This document shows, one piece after another, positions 1,546 through 62,887 of a DNA stretch of 64,000 nucleotides (the first letter of the stretch is position 1; every line of letters begins with the position of its first letter). The DNA comes from Actinopolyspora halophila DSM 43834 (GTDB lineage: Bacteria; Actinomycetota; Actinomycetes; Mycobacteriales; Pseudonocardiaceae). The stretch lies in contig NZ_AQUI01000002.1 of the NCBI RefSeq assembly GCF_000371785.1, positions 4,327,352 through 4,391,351 of the forward strand. The letters are read 5' to 3'. Below the pieces are notes generated by a model. It was not told the origin of the DNA, ran no database searches, and was given only the letters and a program-made list of their open reading frames with translations. The translations under genes were made by a program, and so were the position numbers.

Positions 1546-1831
1546 GTCCCGGGAGCCTAGCCAGCCTCTTTCGGCTCCGGACGTCCGCTGTGATCCTACC
1601 CGCAGATCGACTCCGCCCCGGGCGGACACAACGGGCAGGATCATTCGGAGAACTTCCGGACGAACACGCAGAGTGTTTACGGTTCGCCCAACACTTTCAC
1701 ACGAACTCGCGACACTCCGAACACATGCGCGCCGCCCCGCCCACGGGTACCTTTTGCCCAGCGTAGTCCGGACAGGCACAACGGTGCGTACCGAAGATCC
1801 GGGCCTCGGGACGGCGACAGAGGAGGAAGCC

Positions 1832-1996
1832 TTGGCCGAAACGTACAACGGCTACTGCGTGAAGTGCCGGGAGAAGCGAGACTTCACCGGCGAGATCTCG
1901 GAAACCAACGGCAGGAGGATGGCCAAGGGGACCTGCCCAGTGTGCGGTACGAAAATGACACGCATCCTCGGAAAGGCGCACAACGCCCAGGGATAG
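1832..1996 (+). CDS. DUF5679 small zinc-ribbon protein
   Basis: A 54-residue protein starting at TTG 1832. The start is set by an AGGAGG at 1821-1826 five bases upstream. It carries two CxxC pairs (YCVKCREKR near residue 8 and TCPVCGTKM near residue 33), as expected of the DUF5679 zinc-ribbon family found across actinomycetes. Function is unknown; the fold is probably a single zinc-bound ribbon. It stands alone between a leftward hydrolase gene and a rightward kinase gene, so it is likely monocistronic. The longer in-frame extension upstream has no family similarity and is rejected. Confidence 0.85.
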   Translation: MAETYNGYCVKCREKRDFTGEISETNGRRMAKGTCPVCGTKMTRILGKAHNAQG

Positions 1997-2265
1997 ATCC
2001 CCTCCGGGGGGAATCTCCCCGCCCCGCTGCTCACCGACCGGAGGGCGACGATCGTTCCGACGCGGGTCGGAAACGCGACAACACAACAGCGCTGGTCAAC
2101 TCACCCGGGCTCGGGACGGGCGCTCCTGACCGTGAAAAAGAGCGAATTCGTCCGTGGCGATCTTGCACACGGCTATGCGAATACCTCTAACATGGCGGTG
2201 AGCCCGTAGGCGTGTGTTCGAAGGCCGATCCGCCTTCGCCACCTGCCGACTGGAAGGGAGTTCCC

Positions 2266-7966: not shown

Positions 7967-8124
7967 GATGCGCATCCTCGCAGAGGCGGGAGGTTGACGG
8001 CGGTCACACCCCACCGCGTGACCACGAGGCTTCGTCCGGCAAGCGGCGAAGCCGCTCGTCACCACCCCGGCAACTCACACCGCCGCACGGACGGAACCAG
8101 CACTTCCGACCAAAGGGCACCGCT

Positions 8125-8265
8125 CAACGCAGGCGCTTACGAGCCTGAGCAGTCGGCACCGCCGCGGGTTCTCCCGTGATGCTCTCGCAGGCAAGGCCCG
8201 ACGTTGTGTAGGTCGCTACCCGATGTCGGGCCTGGCCGCAGCGAGAGCCCGCGAAAGGTTCCGCC
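8125..8265 (-). repeat. Structured intergenic repeat, copy A (3' of nudC)
   Basis: Read on the minus strand it begins GGCGGAACC (8265), 34 nt after the nudC stop. Two perfect nested 8-bp stems are present: GCGAGAGC 8241-8248 with 8181-8188, and GTCGGGCC 8225-8232 with 8195-8202. The conserved apical segment ATCGGGTAGCG lies in the inner loop and can form a small GTAG/CTAC hairpin. The 28 nt at 8125-8152 are almost identical to those at the far end of copy B. Five other copies occur in this window. Confidence 0.85.
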
Positions 8266-8299
8266 ACCCGCACCGCCGAGCAAACCGAGCCGCCGACCC

Positions 8300-9241
8300 T
8301 CACCCCAAGGCCCAACCACGCAGCATCCGATGCGCTATGGAGATCCCGGGAGGCAGCCGCATGCCGTGCACGGAAGCGTTCGTTTCCAGGGCCTGGCGAA
8401 CGTGTTCCCTGTTCACCCAGTGTGCTTCGGCGATCTCCCCGTCCGCGGGGTGCAGTGGTGCCTCCGGATCGGCCACGGCGGCGAAGCCCACCATCAACGA
8501 ACGCGGGAACGGCCACGGTTGACTCCCCAGGTAGCGGATGTCGGAGACCTCCACCCCGACTTCCTCGCACACCTCGCGGCGTACGCACCCCTCGAGGGAC
8601 TCCCCCATCTCCACGAAACCGGCCAGCACCGAGAAACGTTCGTCCGGCCAGCCGGCCTTGCGGCCCAGCAGCACCCGGTCGGCCCCGTCGTGCACGAGGC
8701 AGATCATGGAGGGATCGGTGCGTGGGTACTCCTCGTGCCAGCACCCGCCGCAACGGCGGGCCCACCCGCTGCGGATCCGTTCCGTACCCGCGCCGCACAA
8801 CGCGCAGTAGCGCGCACGATCGTGCCAGGCGAGTAACCCGACGGCGGTGGCGAACAGCCCCGCCTCCGCGTCACCGAGCCAGTCCCCGAGTACGCGCAGA
8901 TCGCTCCAGAGAAGTTCGGAGTCACGTGCGCAAGCACGAACTCCCCAACGGGCCACACCCTGGTGCAGCCCGAGCAGGACGGCGTTCGTTCCGTCCCCGA
9001 CAGCCCCGGGAGCGTCCCAGGCCAGGCTTCCTTCCGCGTCGACGGGGGTGCGACCGTACTCGTCCACCAGCAGCACCTTGCCGCCGCGCCACAGTTCGGC
9101 CACCGTGTCCGGGTCGTCCCGGTGGGTGTCCGAGAGTTCCACCGGAGAGCTCGCCAGCAGGGGAGAACTGTCCAGCTGGAATCCTCCCCCGCTGGAGGCC
9201 CCTCCGAAGCCGATCCGCTCCGAATCCGAACGAGCTGTCAC
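8300..9241 (-). CDS. nudC: NAD(+)/NADH diphosphatase NudC
   Basis: A 313-residue Nudix hydrolase. A zinc ribbon (CALCG ... CGGC) is followed by the Nudix box GFVEMGESLEGCVRREVCEEVG, split here by no insertions, and then by SQPWPFP, the signature that separates NADH pyrophosphatases from other Nudix enzymes. The enzyme hydrolyses NAD(H) to NMN(H) and AMP; in mycobacteria it also degrades isoniazid- and ethionamide-NAD adducts. The GTG start overlaps the stop of the upstream M16 gene (GTGA at 9238-9241), so it is the third gene of an operon with the two peptidase genes. Repeat copy A follows the stop. Confidence 0.93.
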   Translation of the reverse strand: MTARSDSERIGFGGASSGGGFQLDSSPLLASSPVELSDTHRDDPDTVAELWRGGKVLLVDEYGRTPVDAEGSLAWDAPGAVGDGTNAVLLGLHQGVARWGVRACARDSELLWSDLRVLGDWLGDAEAGLFATAVGLLAWHDRARYCALCGAGTERIRSGWARRCGGCWHEEYPRTDPSMICLVHDGADRVLLGRKAGWPDERFSVLAGFVEMGESLEGCVRREVCEEVGVEVSDIRYLGSQPWPFPRSLMVGFAAVADPEAPLHPADGEIAEAHWVNREHVRQALETNASVHGMRLPPGISIAHRMLRGWALG

Positions 9242-14403: not shown

Positions 14404-14580
14404 ATGAAGACGTCGCGATCCACTCGCGACCAGTTACTTTCCGGTCCTTTTAGGACTTGTGGCGGAACTTCGCGTAGCTGGCCGGACAACCGTCATGTGA
14501 GTCGGCACCCTGCTGCGTTGGAGGGCGCCTCGAGCAGCGAACTCAGGACGGTCCCGCGCGGAGCGGAGGTGGAGCGGTGA
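14404..14580 (+). CDS. Candidate 58-residue leader ORF coupled to the metallopeptidase gene
   Basis: An ATG at 14404 follows a strong AGGGGGAAG by four bases. The frame of 58 codons ends with TGA at 14578-14580, overlapping the GTG start of the next gene as GTGA. The peptide is Arg/Ser rich without recognisable domains. The strong ribosome site and exact overlap argue for translation; the lack of any recognisable fold leaves open that this is a leader whose only role is coupling. No homology evidence is available. Confidence 0.4.
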   Translation: MKTSRSTRDQLLSGPFRTCGGTSRSWPDNRHVSRHPAALEGASSSELRTVPRGAEVER

Positions 14581-27845: not shown

Positions 27846-27986
27846 CAACGCAGGCGCTTTGAGCCTGAGCAGCCCGACCGACCGCGGGTTCTCAGTCACG
27901 GGTCTCGCGAGGACGGCCTCGACGTCGTGCAGGTGCCTACCCGATGTCGAGGATCGGAGCAGCGAGACCCCGACCGAGGTTCCGCC
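27846..27986 (-). repeat. Structured intergenic repeat, copy B (3' of the TIGR02569 gene)
   Basis: On the minus strand it begins GGCGGAACC at 27986, 36 nt after the TIGR02569 stop. Outer stem GCGAGACC 27962-27969 with 27901-27908 (8 bp) and inner stem GTCGAGG 27946-27952 with 27917-27923 (7 bp) match the stems of copy A with changed but still paired bases. The inner loop again holds CATCGGGTAG on this strand. Its 3' end (27846-27872) is nearly identical to that of copy A. Confidence 0.85.
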
Positions 27987-28022
27987 ACGCAACCACCCGA
28001 GCAGAGCACCGGCACAAGAGCT

Positions 28023-28829
28023 TCACAAAACTTCCAGGACCGTCTGCGAGGCGCTCTCGAGCCCCCCGAGCGAGGAGGTGCTCGCACGCGGGTGCAGCGC
28101 GTGCAACGCGAGGCGGAACAGCAGGGCCCGCAACAACATCTGGGGCCACTCCGCGAGATGCGACCACCGCTCGACTATCGCCGGGTCGGAACCTCCCCAG
28201 GCCAGCGCGTCGATCACCACCACCGCCGCTGCCCACTCCGCGGGGCGCCAGAACGGGACGAAGTCGATCAAACCGGGTGGAGCGTTGCCGGAGAACAGCA
28301 CGTTGCCGAACAGGTCGCCGTGCACCACCTGGGGGCGCAGTGCGACGTGTTTACGCGAGGCGGCCAGCACGTCGAACAGCCGCCCGCCCTTCTCCGGGGA
28401 CAGCGACATGTGCGCCTCGCCCCAGGCCATTCGGTCGGCGAGCGCGTAGATGTCCTGGCGGGAATCCACGAAACGCGGTTTGTCCAGGCGGCTGGTCGCG
28501 GTGTGCAGCCGCAGCGACATCGCGACGACCTCGTCGTGTCGCGGTTCGGGCCGCCCGACGAGATCACGCCGCGCGGACCATCCGGAAACCACCCACCTGC
28601 CGTCGGTGGACCGCAGCGGCCGCGCCAGACGCGTCTCCTCCGGCGCCAGCGTGTCCAACACCCGCGCCACCCAAGCGGCCTCGGCCGTGTTCGCCGCGAG
28701 CTTGAGCAGCACTCCGTCCTCTTCGCCGCAACGCCAGGCGAGTCCGCCCTCCAGCAGTTCGACCCCCTCCCCACGCGCACCGAACGCGGCGCGCACATGG
28801 GTCGGGGGTGGCTCGGCCGTAGCACTCAC
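28023..28829 (-). CDS. TIGR02569 family phosphotransferase-like protein
   Basis: A 268-residue protein of the actinobacterial TIGR02569 family. It has an aminoglycoside-phosphotransferase-like layout: VVHGDLFGNVLF carries the catalytic-loop aspartate and asparagine, followed by GLIDFVPFWRPAEWAAAVVVID with the metal-binding aspartate. Substrate unknown. GTG 28829 is the start. The M. tuberculosis equivalent (Rv3205c) sits next to moeZ as here, and the two genes point the same way with about 200 bases between them. Confidence 0.85.
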   Translation of the reverse strand: MSATAEPPPTHVRAAFGARGEGVELLEGGLAWRCGEEDGVLLKLAANTAEAAWVARVLDTLAPEETRLARPLRSTDGRWVVSGWSARRDLVGRPEPRHDEVVAMSLRLHTATSRLDKPRFVDSRQDIYALADRMAWGEAHMSLSPEKGGRLFDVLAASRKHVALRPQVVHGDLFGNVLFSGNAPPGLIDFVPFWRPAEWAAAVVVIDALAWGGSDPAIVERWSHLAEWPQMLLRALLFRLALHALHPRASTSSLGGLESASQTVLEVL

Positions 28830-31384: not shown

Positions 31385-31502
31385 TGATCTCCTCGAATCC
31401 CTACCGACTCACTGGTGCTCTTTCCTGCCGTGTCGACGACCGGTGTGGTGCTCCCGGCATCGGCAGCGCCGCGAGGCCCCACCGCGCGGCCCGCGCCTTC
31501 CA

Positions 31503-31604
31503 CGGGTTCTCCCCCGTCGCGCTCTCGAGAGGACGGCTCCGACGTCCTGTAGAACGCTACCCGATGTCGGGAGCCTCGCAGCGCGAGTCGACGGGAGGTT
31601 CCGC
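31503..31604 (-). repeat. Structured intergenic repeat, copy C (upstream of the DUF3152 gene)
   Basis: Inner arms 31566-31575 (GTCGGGAGCC) and 31535-31543 pair with one bulge. An outer 7-bp stem joins 31513-31519 with 31589-31595. The GTAG/CTAC mini-hairpin and CATCGGGTAG loop are conserved. The middle stem is imperfect compared with copies A and B. Unlike the other copies it does not follow a recognisable gene end: it lies in the divergent region between the DUF3152 gene and a TetR gene. Confidence 0.8.
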
Positions 31605-31700
31605 TCGGCGACCACCTACGACAACCCGAACGGCGAACCTCGCTCGGCGCACCGTTCAACCGAGCGGCCCGCCGAGCGCTTCCGTGGCCTCCAGGTTGCC

Positions 31701-33106: not shown

Positions 33107-33306
33107 GGAGGTCCTTTCGTCCGGATGGTTCCCGTCACGGCGAGACGCACGGTTTCCGGAACGGGAACGAAGAACCGTCCCGCCGTGATATGCCGCCTCC
33201 GGTCACAGTACCGAACTCGAGAGGGACCGCGGCTCGGTTGTCGTGGGTGATTCCGTGGTTGGACCTCTCGCGGACTCCGGCTCCGGGCAGACCCGGGAGC
33301 GGGTAG

Positions 33307-33331
33307 CCGCGAGCGGCTTCGCCGCTCGCGG
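33307..33331 (-). terminator. Strong 10-bp hairpin downstream of the alpha/beta hydrolase gene
   Basis: CCGCGAGCGG (33307-33316) and its exact complement (33322-33331) enclose CTTCG, about 67 nt past the hydrolase stop. It is very stable and has no T-run. The flanking sequence on the minus strand (TCCGCGAGAGGTC near 33265) is reminiscent of one arm of the structured repeat, but the conserved loop is missing. Confidence 0.55.
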
Positions 33332-33397
33332 GACGACCGGGTCCCCGACCTCGGACACGGCACGTGGGAACCCGGTCGCACCGACCGCGGGAGAGGA

Positions 33398-36091: not shown

Positions 36092-36436
36092 GTGGTGGAA
36101 CAGCTCGAGGACGAGGAACGGCACGACGAAAACGACTACCTCGGCTCCGCCGTGGTGTTCACCGCCGACACGGAGATCGCCGTGAACGTCGTGCTGCGCG
36201 GCAACTTCCAGCCGATCGACGGGAGATTCCACTGGTACGGGCGCGCCGAGGCCGACGAGAAGCTGGACGAGCTGACCGCGGGCCGCAGAGTGGAGGTCGT
36301 GCTGCGCACTCCGCACGGCGATGCGGCCGCCACCCTGTCCGATCCGGACCCGTGGAACAGGTATCGCGTCACCGGACTGGGACGTCCACCGTTTCCGCTG
36401 GACACGGAACTGGCCGACTTGAACGAGGGTGGCTGA
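36092..36436 (+). CDS. DUF4873 domain protein
   Basis: A 114-residue protein with the DUF4873 core: YLGSAVVFTADTEIAVNVVLRG, IDGRFHWYGRA and VVLRTPHGDAAATLSDPDPW. Such domains occur alone or fused to flavin monooxygenases and near AurF-like oxygenases in actinomycetes, which fits the neighbouring locus. GTG 36092 follows GGAGG by seven bases. It lies 77 bases downstream of the TetR gene on the same strand, so the two probably share a transcript. Biochemical role unknown. Repeat copy D follows the stop. Confidence 0.85.
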   Translation: MVEQLEDEERHDENDYLGSAVVFTADTEIAVNVVLRGNFQPIDGRFHWYGRAEADEKLDELTAGRRVEVVLRTPHGDAAATLSDPDPWNRYRVTGLGRPPFPLDTELADLNEGG

Positions 36437-36472
36437 CGACCGTTCCCGCGTTCGGTTCGCGCGGGTTCGCCT

Positions 36473-36579
36473 GCGCGAAAAACCCGCTGCGCCGTGAGCG
36501 GGGCCCCGACATCGGGTAGCGGTGCCACACGACGTCGGGGCCGTCCTCGCCGGAGCACCCGCGGGAGACCCCGCGGCGG
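36473..36579 (+). repeat. Structured intergenic repeat, copy D (3' of the DUF4873 gene)
   Basis: It begins about 36 nt after the stop. The inner stem is the best of the family: GGCCCCGAC (36502-36510) with GTCGGGGCC (36534-36542), nine perfect pairs. The loop starts ATCGGGTAGCGG. The leading GGCGGAA of other copies is changed here. A 3' part rich in CCGCGG matches the family's distal end. Confidence 0.82.
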
Positions 36580-47529: not shown

Positions 47530-47999
47530 GCCCGGGAGTAACGAACAGCGGGGTCGTGACGACATCACGGTCAGGGCCGCCGGAACGACCGGCCGCCCGG
47601 TGCACGACCACGCCGGCACACGACCACGTGCGGTTCGTTCGCACTACCCGGCTCACACGCCCCGGGCACGAAGACGACGATCGCGGTTGGGAGGGAATCG
47701 TGCGCGACACCGGAACCGGAAAGTCGACGAACACGCCGCGGGCGAAGTCGGAACGGACTTCCACTGCGACCGGTGAACGCCAACCGGATTCACCTCGCCT
47801 GCGGCGGACCTCCCGCGACGTAAGGCACCAGCGAAAACCCGGCGCGGTGTGGCACGTGACTCCCACGAGCACGCGCGCCGAACTCTCGGCACACTGATTC
47901 GGGGAGCACCACGGGCCACATCGTGCGGCGAATTCCGCGCGTCCGGTGATTGCGTTCGGACGTGGTTTCCGTTTCGAGCTGCGCACTGGGAGGAATGGC
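47530..47999. other. Intergenic region after corA
   Basis: About 470 bases in which I see no gene with a recognisable fold or ribosome site, and no strong hairpin. It ends with the ribosome binding site of the 31-residue gene. Confidence 0.4.
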
Positions 48000-48095
48000 A
48001 TGTCCCGTCTGGTGACCAACAAACCCGCCGTGCTTTTCACGCTGATCAACGGCTGGATACTCACACTGTTTCTGATCATCGCCAATCAGGTCTGA
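48000..48095 (+). CDS. 31-residue membrane protein
   Basis: ATG 48000 follows GGGAGGA by five bases. The peptide has a short basic head (MSRLVTNKPAV) and one strongly hydrophobic helix (LFTLINGWILTLFLIIANQ), so it is a single-pass membrane miniprotein. It is too short for most annotation pipelines. Structured repeat copy E starts 39 nt after its stop, as it does after longer genes elsewhere, which independently supports this being a real gene end. Confidence 0.7.
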   Translation: MSRLVTNKPAVLFTLINGWILTLFLIIANQV

Positions 48096-48134
48096 TCCGA
48101 GTTCTCCGGTCGCCCCTTTCGCAGGTGGTTTCTC

Positions 48135-48240
48135 GGCGGAAACTACCGCGGTCTCGTGAGCGGGCGCCCCGACGTCGGGAAGCGCTCCACACAGCGCCGG
48201 GGCCGTCCTCGGGAGAGCACCACGGGCGAACCCGCGGCGG
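48135..48240 (+). repeat. Structured intergenic repeat, copy E (3' of the 31-residue gene)
   Basis: It begins GGCGGAAAC at 48135. Left arm 48163-48173 pairs with 48196-48204 with a two-base bulge and one mismatch; the loop contains GACGTCGGGAAGCG. Outer GTCTCGTGAG (48151-48160) can partly pair with GGGAGAGCAC (48211-48220). The distal CCCGCGGCGG is the same as in copies A and B. Confidence 0.82.
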
Positions 48241-61658: not shown

Positions 61659-62798
61659 GTGACCACAACTCAGCCCACTCCCACCGAGGACGCGGTGCGG
61701 CAGGCCCTCACCAAGGTGGAGGACCCGGAGATCCACAAGCCGATCACCGAGCTCGGGATGGTCAAGGACGTGACCATCGGTTCCGAAGGTGACGTCAAGG
61801 TCGGTGTTTACCTGACCGTGCAAGGGTGCCCGATGCGGGAGACCATCACCCAGCGGGTCGATTCGGCGGTCTCCGAGGTCACCGGCGTCGGCTCGGTCGA
61901 GGTCGAACTCGACGTGATGAGCGACGAGCAACGCACCGAACTCCGCAAGCAGCTGCGGGGTGACGCGGAGGAACCCCGCATCCCGTTCGCCGAGCCAGGC
62001 TCGCTGACCAGGGTCTACTGCGTCGCCTCCGGGAAGGGCGGTGTAGGCAAGTCCAGCGTGACGGTCAACCTCGCCGCTTCCATGGCCGAACGCGGACTCT
62101 CCGTCGGTGTCGTCGACGCCGACATCTACGGCCACTCCGTACCGCGGATGCTGGGAACCGAGAGCAAGCCCACCCAGGTCGAGAACATGATCATGCCGCC
62201 GCAGGCACACGGGGTCAAGCTGATCTCCATCGGCATGTTCACCCCCGGCAACACGCCGGTCGTGTGGCGTGGTCCGATGCTGCACCGGGCACTCCAGCAG
62301 TTCCTGTCCGACGTCTTCTGGGGAGACCTCGACGTCCTGCTGCTCGACCTCCCGCCAGGTACGGGCGACGTGGCGCTGTCGACGGCCCAGCTGATCCCGA
62401 ACGCGGAGATCCTCGTCGTCACCACCCCGCAGCAGGCCGCGGCCGAGGTGGCCGAGCGCGCCGGTGCGATCGCCATGCAGACGCGTCAACGGATCGCCGG
62501 GGTCGTCGAGAACATGTCCTGGATGGAACTCGAGGACGGCCAGCGCGTCGAGGTCTTCGGGTCCGGAGGCGGTCAGATCGTCTCGGACTCGCTGACCCGC
62601 TCGGTCGGCTCGGATGTCCCGCTGCTGGGACAGGTCCCGCTCGACACACGTCTCCGGGAATCCGGCGACAGCGGTGCTCCGCTCGTCCTGCAGGATCCCG
62701 ATTCCCCCGCGAGCACGGTGCTCAGCGACGTGGCCCAGAAGCTCTCCACCAGAGCACGCGGGCTGGCGGGCCAGCTGTTGTCCGTTTCGCCCGCCTGA
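61659..62798 (+). CDS. mrp: Mrp/ApbC family iron-sulfur cluster carrier ATPase
   Basis: A 379-residue protein. The N-terminal MIP18/DUF59 domain (ITELGMVKDVTI, VQGCPMRE) is followed by a P-loop NTPase with ASGKGGVGKSS, DADIYGHSVP, LIDLPPGTGD-like LLLDLPPGTGD and VENMSWM. The C-terminal CxxC present in enterobacterial Mrp is absent, as in other actinomycetes. It carries or inserts Fe-S clusters. GTG 61659 fits the usual length of about 380. Truncated repeat copy F follows the stop. Confidence 0.92.
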   Translation: MTTTQPTPTEDAVRQALTKVEDPEIHKPITELGMVKDVTIGSEGDVKVGVYLTVQGCPMRETITQRVDSAVSEVTGVGSVEVELDVMSDEQRTELRKQLRGDAEEPRIPFAEPGSLTRVYCVASGKGGVGKSSVTVNLAASMAERGLSVGVVDADIYGHSVPRMLGTESKPTQVENMIMPPQAHGVKLISIGMFTPGNTPVVWRGPMLHRALQQFLSDVFWGDLDVLLLDLPPGTGDVALSTAQLIPNAEILVVTTPQQAAAEVAERAGAIAMQTRQRIAGVVENMSWMELEDGQRVEVFGSGGGQIVSDSLTRSVGSDVPLLGQVPLDTRLRESGDSGAPLVLQDPDSPASTVLSDVAQKLSTRARGLAGQLLSVSPA

Positions 62799-62839: not shown

Positions 62840-62887
62840 GGCGGAATCTCTCGCCTGCTCGTGGGCGGGTACCCGACGTCGAACGGC
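62840..62887 (+). repeat. Structured intergenic repeat, truncated copy F (3' of mrp)
   Basis: It begins GGCGGAATC at 62840, 41 nt after the mrp stop, and aligns with the first half of copy E (GGCGGAA, GCTCGTG-GCGGG, CCCGACGTCG). The second half, which would complete the stems, is missing or diverged. Confidence 0.6.

Follow-up and report, generated by a model that had tools for sequence, protein, structure and literature searches.

Within a 64,000-nt stretch of the Actinopolyspora halophila DSM 43834 genome, here called the window, several intergenic sequences can fold into long hairpins, and the question is what kind of element they represent. The sequence-only reading had described five full copies and one truncated copy of a dispersed structured family, and these copies were real. 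Copies A to E were recovered with the covariance model R1, i.e., 30 sequences with 27 base pairs, which was built from copies A, B, C and E plus 26 further loci picked for an exact hairpin tip, with D left out. R1 gave no match at copy F, which was recognized by eye as a 5' half. The coordinates are listed in Table 1. The repeat, named H1, is probably a non-autonomous family of palindromic DNA hairpins which resembles REP/BIME sequences and, in the collections searched, is restricted to its genus.

Table 1. Repeat copies and associated features in the window
Feature	Position	Strand	Evidence
Copy A, core hairpin, full	8162..8263	-	R1, 105.5 bits
Leader of A, between stop codon of NUDIX gene (8300-9142, -) and core	8264..8299	-	gene call, Pfam, leader profile
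Tail hairpin of A (CAGGC/GCCTG)	8130..8147	-	
5' half of second hairpin family H2, approximate ends	14488..14550	+	
Copy B, core hairpin, full	27882..27984	-	R1, 103.3 bits
Leader of B, after stop codon of gene 28023-28796 (-)	27985..28022	-	gene call
Tail hairpin of B	27851..27867	-	
Copy C, core hairpin, full; divergent spacer, upstream gene 305 nt away	31500..31603	-	R1, 86.1 bits
Further 5'-half copy, ends at hairpin tip	33222..33308	+	profile match, 7.2e-9; breakpoint at core position 52
Leader position of D, after stop codon of gene 36092-36436 (+)	36437..36475	+	gene call; no leader profile match
Copy D, core hairpin, outer 5' arm diverged	36476..36576	+	R1, 51.8 bits, outside training set
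Leader of E, after conserved 49-aa ORF (47946-48095)	48096..48136	+	gene call, weak leader profile match
Copy E, core hairpin, full	48137..48237	+	R1, 67.6 bits
Copy F, 5' half only, 41 nt after stop codon of gene 61659-62798 (+)	62840..62887	+	by eye, gene call

The unit is composed of a leader (about 36-41 nt), a hairpin of roughly 103 nt and a tail, which is able to form a small hairpin. Three stems (outer, second and inner) make up the hairpin together with a conserved tip (ATCGGGTAGCGNCCTACACAAC), in which GTAG faces CTAC. In the folds, the tip is extended by flanking GCGG and CCGC with facing AAC triplets. The whole element is longer than the about 100-140 nt proposed earlier, with the leader lying between stop codon and core; A and B had been given as 141 nt because of the tail hairpin. 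The motifs described as shared, i.e., a GGCGGAA start, a conserved loop and a CCGCGG end, are majority features and not invariant: D is without the GGCGGAA start, the loop of E is GTCGGGAAGC and C ends in CCCGTGG. The gap from stop codon to core was 36, 38, 39, 41 and 41 nt in A, B, D, E and F, respectively. The leader profile matched at A (8259-8301, E 4.8e-6), at B over 27980-28007 only (E 7e-4) and weakly at E and C (0.03), and no match was obtained at D or F. The 49-codon ORF directly before E has an end conserved in three species. A GC-rich inverted pair (window 8032-8067 and 33301-33336) adjoins repeat copies and resembles the hairpins found after many copies.

A second hairpin family, H2, has other arms on the same GTAG-CTAC tip, with similar leader and tail, and 19 full copies were found in the 607 kb searched. 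H1 copies were also matched by the H2 model, R2, with scores of about 30-64 bits, and therefore H1 and H2 share features. At E 1e-8 or better, R2 gave 30-66 matches per carrier genome, cross-matches included, and one in the genome G006. The two families are also found combined: in a chimera, the 5' half of H2 is joined at the tip to the 3' half of H1, and an H1 tip was also seen on H2 arms. The placement at stop codons, leader, tail, H2, module exchange and tip breaks are additions to the earlier description.

The dispersal of the family was confirmed in the whole genome. Allowing up to one mismatch, the core motif CCGACRTCGGGTAGCG was found at 106 sites in A. halophila (5.35 Mb, two contigs), far beyond chance, versus one site for the reversed pattern. 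The genome search with R1 gave at least 149 matches, from 150 scored candidates, of which 145 were at E 2.1e-5 or better. Across the genus, R1 gave at least 129-147 matches per genome in nine of the ten genomes; G006 had three, i.e., two real copies, one of them read on both strands. The plain pattern occurred at 23-94 sites in eight of the nine other genus genomes and at none in G006, and 31 other genomes of the family and order had 0-3 sites, i.e., the control level. Searched exactly in a collection of named genomes, the pattern gave 94 stretches, and all 80 listed were from Actinopolyspora (five named species). The H1 hairpin family is confined to Actinopolyspora in the collections searched. 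A query of one copy plus flanks (201 bases) found nothing in plasmids and phages, and the exact pattern was not found in viral contigs. G006 (4.23 Mb, one contig) lies near the A. halophila clade by one protein, i.e., ThiF with 96% identity. With two H1 copies and one H2 match, it is a natural near-absence control.

The earlier reading recognized no named family, and the same result was obtained here. Rfam at gathering score gave no match in the 64-kb window. Seven chance-level Rfam matches were present, none overlapping a core, and one of them (31630-31682) touches the leader side of C. Rfam membership was rejected on this result, and the repeat matches no named family among those tested. In the open-access literature searched, no such repeat in Actinopolyspora was found.

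The stems covary, as had been claimed. Among 100 copies (98 distinct), in an alignment that was fitted to the structure with a model from loci chosen for the exact tip, 90.8% of the cells pair and 20 of 27 pairs are changed on both sides. In this same fitted alignment, doubly changed cells numbered 286, versus 117 in shuffles and 10-50 with the pairing slid, and the covariation score was 0.284, versus 0.111 shuffled and 0.046-0.065 slid. A MAFFT alignment independent of the model was also used. The outer arms were mismatched, i.e., at two or three of the three variable pairs, in 10 of 104 copies, versus 54 on average (minimum 40) over 200 shuffles. Normalised mutual information between the arms was 0.36 in the outer stem and 0.25 in the second stem over a shuffled background of 0.043; from the outer 3' arm it was 0.08 to the adjacent tail and 0.03-0.06 to the leader. 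The outer and second stems couple mutually at non-pairing positions (0.17-0.40), and both stems therefore travel as one block. The two sides of the inner stem couple only at 0.14, no more than the inner stem does with the outer one, and some copies join arms of different type (e.g., L008 and L028). Leader, core and tail assort nearly independently.

Under the reading as a DNA hairpin family, the arms would stay matched because a folded single strand is the unit that is propagated or tolerated. This strand is more likely DNA, as a cruciform or behind the replication fork, and possibly RNA. Snap-back copying of the 5' arm was rejected, as inspection by eye showed no complementarity between the internal loops of the two arms. 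It seems improbable that the copies are neutral relics, i.e., once mobile and now drifting, homogenised by gene conversion and with arm matches left from a few founding variants. Such relics fit the dominance of few arm types, the outer and second stems moving as a block and the common half copies. However, the leader and tail assort in this free manner while arms about 75 nt apart stay matched, and every helix has pairs changed on both sides in some copies.

The structure had been proposed to be a selected RNA or a cruciform. The strong covariation supports a structured family; for the RNA nature, the strand test was mixed. In the outer stem, G-U and A-C cells on the sense strand numbered 33 and 43; 33 of the A-C cells lie in one column, and without it the counts are 29 and 10. 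The inner stem had 12 G-U versus 27 A-C cells. With RNA energies, the antisense strand gave the better fold in 90 of 104 copies, and with DNA energies in 86 of 104. A strand-specific RNA signature is weakened by these mixed results. These counts bear on a rival explanation, in which the repeat is a sense-strand RNA module of mRNA 3' ends, i.e., a stem-loop between stop codon and terminator that would protect transcripts, end transcription or bind a protein, and that is selected and spread by recombination. We consider this rather unlikely. The excess of G-U in the outer stem without the one column agrees with it, but the inner stem and the better folding of the antisense strand (90/104) do not.

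The placement behind genes is relevant to the same rival. Genes were called by a codon-usage script, so their starts are approximate, and the 106 copies studied came from 41 regions chosen where copies cluster. Nearly all were intergenic (104/106). The upstream gene was co-oriented with the copy in 80 of these 104 and opposed in 24. Among the 80 co-oriented copies, 69 have a core that starts 28-54 nt after the stop codon, and leader-like sequence fills most gaps. Four further named species gave a similar picture: of 84 copies that have a gene upstream, 67 were co-oriented with it, and 59 of these 67 lay within 28-54 nt, six pairs of the loci being orthologous between species. H2 is placed likewise (17/19 co-oriented, 16 of the 17 in the same interval). 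A further perfect hairpin (stem of 8 or more) followed downstream of 35 of 73 copies, versus 9.6 in mononucleotide shuffles, with a median start 104 nt after the core. Stops without a repeat had such a hairpin in 69 of 246 cases, versus 28.3 shuffled, and nearer to the stop.

The sense orientation, the narrow spacing after stop codons and the further downstream hairpin (35/73 versus 9.6) are consistent with the RNA module, and so is the likeness of the copies that six species carry at one orthologous site. On the other side, the 24 opposed copies are antisense to their upstream gene, G006 manages almost without the repeat, and one copy is situated after a tRNA gene that has a terminator-like hairpin of its own. 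The repeat as the only terminator was rejected by this tRNA copy and by the other hairpins after 35 of 73 copies. In the locus L069, 1240-2057 (C2:4320535-4321352), two tRNA-Met genes (1240-1314 and 1686-1760, minus strand) each have a near-identical repeat copy before them (1501-1602 and 1956-2057, minus strand). If the family is instead a DNA hairpin, as preferred here, insertion or retention beside stop codons would be favoured because it is a harmless, transcribed gene end.

At the sites compared, the copies turn over between species. B, C and D are missing from six more distant species and from G006, and one or both close species have them: B is present in G002 and missing from G001, C is common to both, and D is common to G001, with only remnant-like sequence in G002. 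The site of A in G002 is occupied by a copy of another arm type. At the site of E, the G001 copy was matched on the opposite strand (53.3 bits), and G002 had none. In four orthologous spacers compared, the same genes were found with and without the repeat. From one sister species to the next, the leader, core or tail behind the same stop codon is often of a different kind, or H2 replaces H1. No target-site duplication was seen in eight aligned site sets.

A copy roughly 40 nt behind the ThiF gene is common to six distant species and missing from the A. halophila clade. Its inner stem is CCCGAC/GTCGGG in four species and GGAGAC/GTCTCC in two, and this change as a matched block between clades is a further point against neutral relics. 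Core identity between the two clades was 0.88-0.95, and that of four-fold sites 0.70-0.71; this conservation could reflect a host function. Within groups, core and four-fold sites are closer, and G005-G009 is reversed (0.931 versus 0.968). The arm type of this site is common in the distant clade (49/85 copies), and homogenisation may therefore explain the likeness of the cores. The idea of a locus-specific arm kept at the ThiF site is weakened by the same count.

Half copies are nearly always of one polarity. The profile rows comprised 219 full copies, 38 with only the 5' half and five with only the 3' part (215, 38 and 4 distinct by sequence); three of the five 3'-only rows represent D and its ortholog in G001, one duplicate included, and count as 3'-only because of low-scoring 5' arms. 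The ends of the 5' halves lie within core positions 44-58 in 21 of 38 rows, at least three of these 21 being orthologs or repeats of one place; none lies between 30 and 40, and three lie between 60 and 80. One half copy of G001, beside full sister copies, looks by eye like a deletion from the tip outward. SbcCD of Escherichia coli cleaves palindromes and hairpins, which would leave ends at the tip. By this analogy, an SbcCD-like cleavage might act at the hairpin tips described here. The polarity may reflect selection protecting the upstream gene.

In the DNA hairpin reading, the tip would occasionally be opened; mosaics would then result from repair on another copy, and half copies from end joining. 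A bolder version, to which we give little credit, is that the family persists without any transposase: in vivo the tips would be opened and then mended from sister copies, with whole matched tips or arm pairs swapped in a leader-tail socket. The breaks would nearly always leave the 5' half, and the socket would stay fixed behind stop codons.

RAYT transposases are commonly held responsible for the spread of REP/BIME sequences. A rival explanation is a REPIN-type element with a REP-associated HUH (Y1) transposase as its mover, which would read the GTAG of the tip and cut at the CT nearby; this appears improbable. TnpAREP is described to need GTAG and to cut at CT beside the REP (PMC8266576). 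The GTAG in the tip and several half copies which end, by eye, beside the following CT resemble this, and Y1 matches were present in eight of the ten genus genomes. However, these eight include the near-empty G006, and at E 0.001 or better there was no Y1 match in G002 and G008, both rich carriers, where a lost or diverged enzyme is possible. A repeat copy lay within about 2 kb of one of 18 Y1 loci, leaving 17 with no copy nearby. The GTAG lies inside the tip and is paired, and is not at the stem foot. A Y1/RAYT enzyme as the present mover was rejected by its phyletic pattern and neighbourhood. No transposase, integrase or autonomous parent was found, Y1 being the sole mobile-element family searched. 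By eye, the Y1 proteins look like ordinary IS200/IS605 TnpA. Two Y1 genes with identical translation, L208 and L209 (C2:2.80 and 3.41 Mb), lie in the half far from dnaA, which is repeat-poor.

Comparison with known repeats shows which features are new. REPs are described as units of 20-50 nt in which a tetranucleotide, e.g., GTAG, precedes the stem (PMC8266576), and REP/BIME sequences as high-copy, intergenic and palindromic with alternative complementary stems, sitting between co-directional or convergent genes near ORF 3' ends (PMC3733652). The Actinopolyspora repeat is also high-copy, palindromic, intergenic and near ORF 3' ends. It differs in its core of roughly 103 nt, in GTAG placed in the tip and not at the stem foot, in variable arms, and in leader and tail. 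Actinobacteria are not among the phyla named for GTAG and CGTC repeats in PMC3733652, and a word search of that paper gave no mention of them. REPINs are described as REP pairs 71 or 110 bp apart in inverse order, forming a long extragenic hairpin in which compensatory changes are common (PMC3116915). A long extragenic hairpin with compensatory changes is thus common to both. In REPINs, however, the ends are conserved, the inner part varies and a RAYT is associated, whereas in Actinopolyspora the tip is conserved and the arms vary, among copies found with a model from tip-selected loci, and Y1 does not track the family. The family works like REP/BIME, yet it fails the defining features of REP units and REPINs. 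A position near ORF 3' ends and compensatory stems are known from REPs and REPINs, and these two features are therefore less surprising. More distinctive are the exchangeable arms around a conserved tip, the breaks at the tip and that no matching enzyme was found.

Two other systems are placed at stop codons. The MIRU of mycobacteria are actinobacterial intergenic repeats, which are said to sit at stop codons in gene orientation. They are direct repeats with small ORFs, not long palindromes, and on this description would differ from the Actinopolyspora repeat. The attC sites of integrons are structured hairpin sites of variable sequence behind stop codons. In Actinopolyspora, the genes at four spacers are orthologous with and without the repeat, and there is no cassette-wise gain or loss there. 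In an actinobacterial genus, the family occupies the REP/BIME niche, i.e., gene 3' ends; its hairpin is larger and of another build, and no RAYT-type enzyme was found that tracks it. The G006 control and the copy number allow base-pair selection, hairpin breakage and recombination to be tested as causes of the arm matching.

On the chromosome, the copies cluster toward dnaA, which lies at C2:165,220 in A. halophila. The origin half, by distance from dnaA, holds at least 122 of at least 149 copies in A. halophila and, among the matches listed, 45 of 57 in G003 and 75 of 93 in G009. The fifth farthest from dnaA has five, one and no copies, respectively, among the matches listed. The full pattern list for A. 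halophila showed the same clustering. Among the listed copies, 99 of 149 in A. halophila, 43 of 57 in G003 and 63 of 93 in G009 are co-oriented with replication. The genes in the regions read are likewise co-oriented (336 versus 194), and therefore only the convergent spacers, with 27 versus 12 copies co-oriented with replication, hint at an effect of replication.
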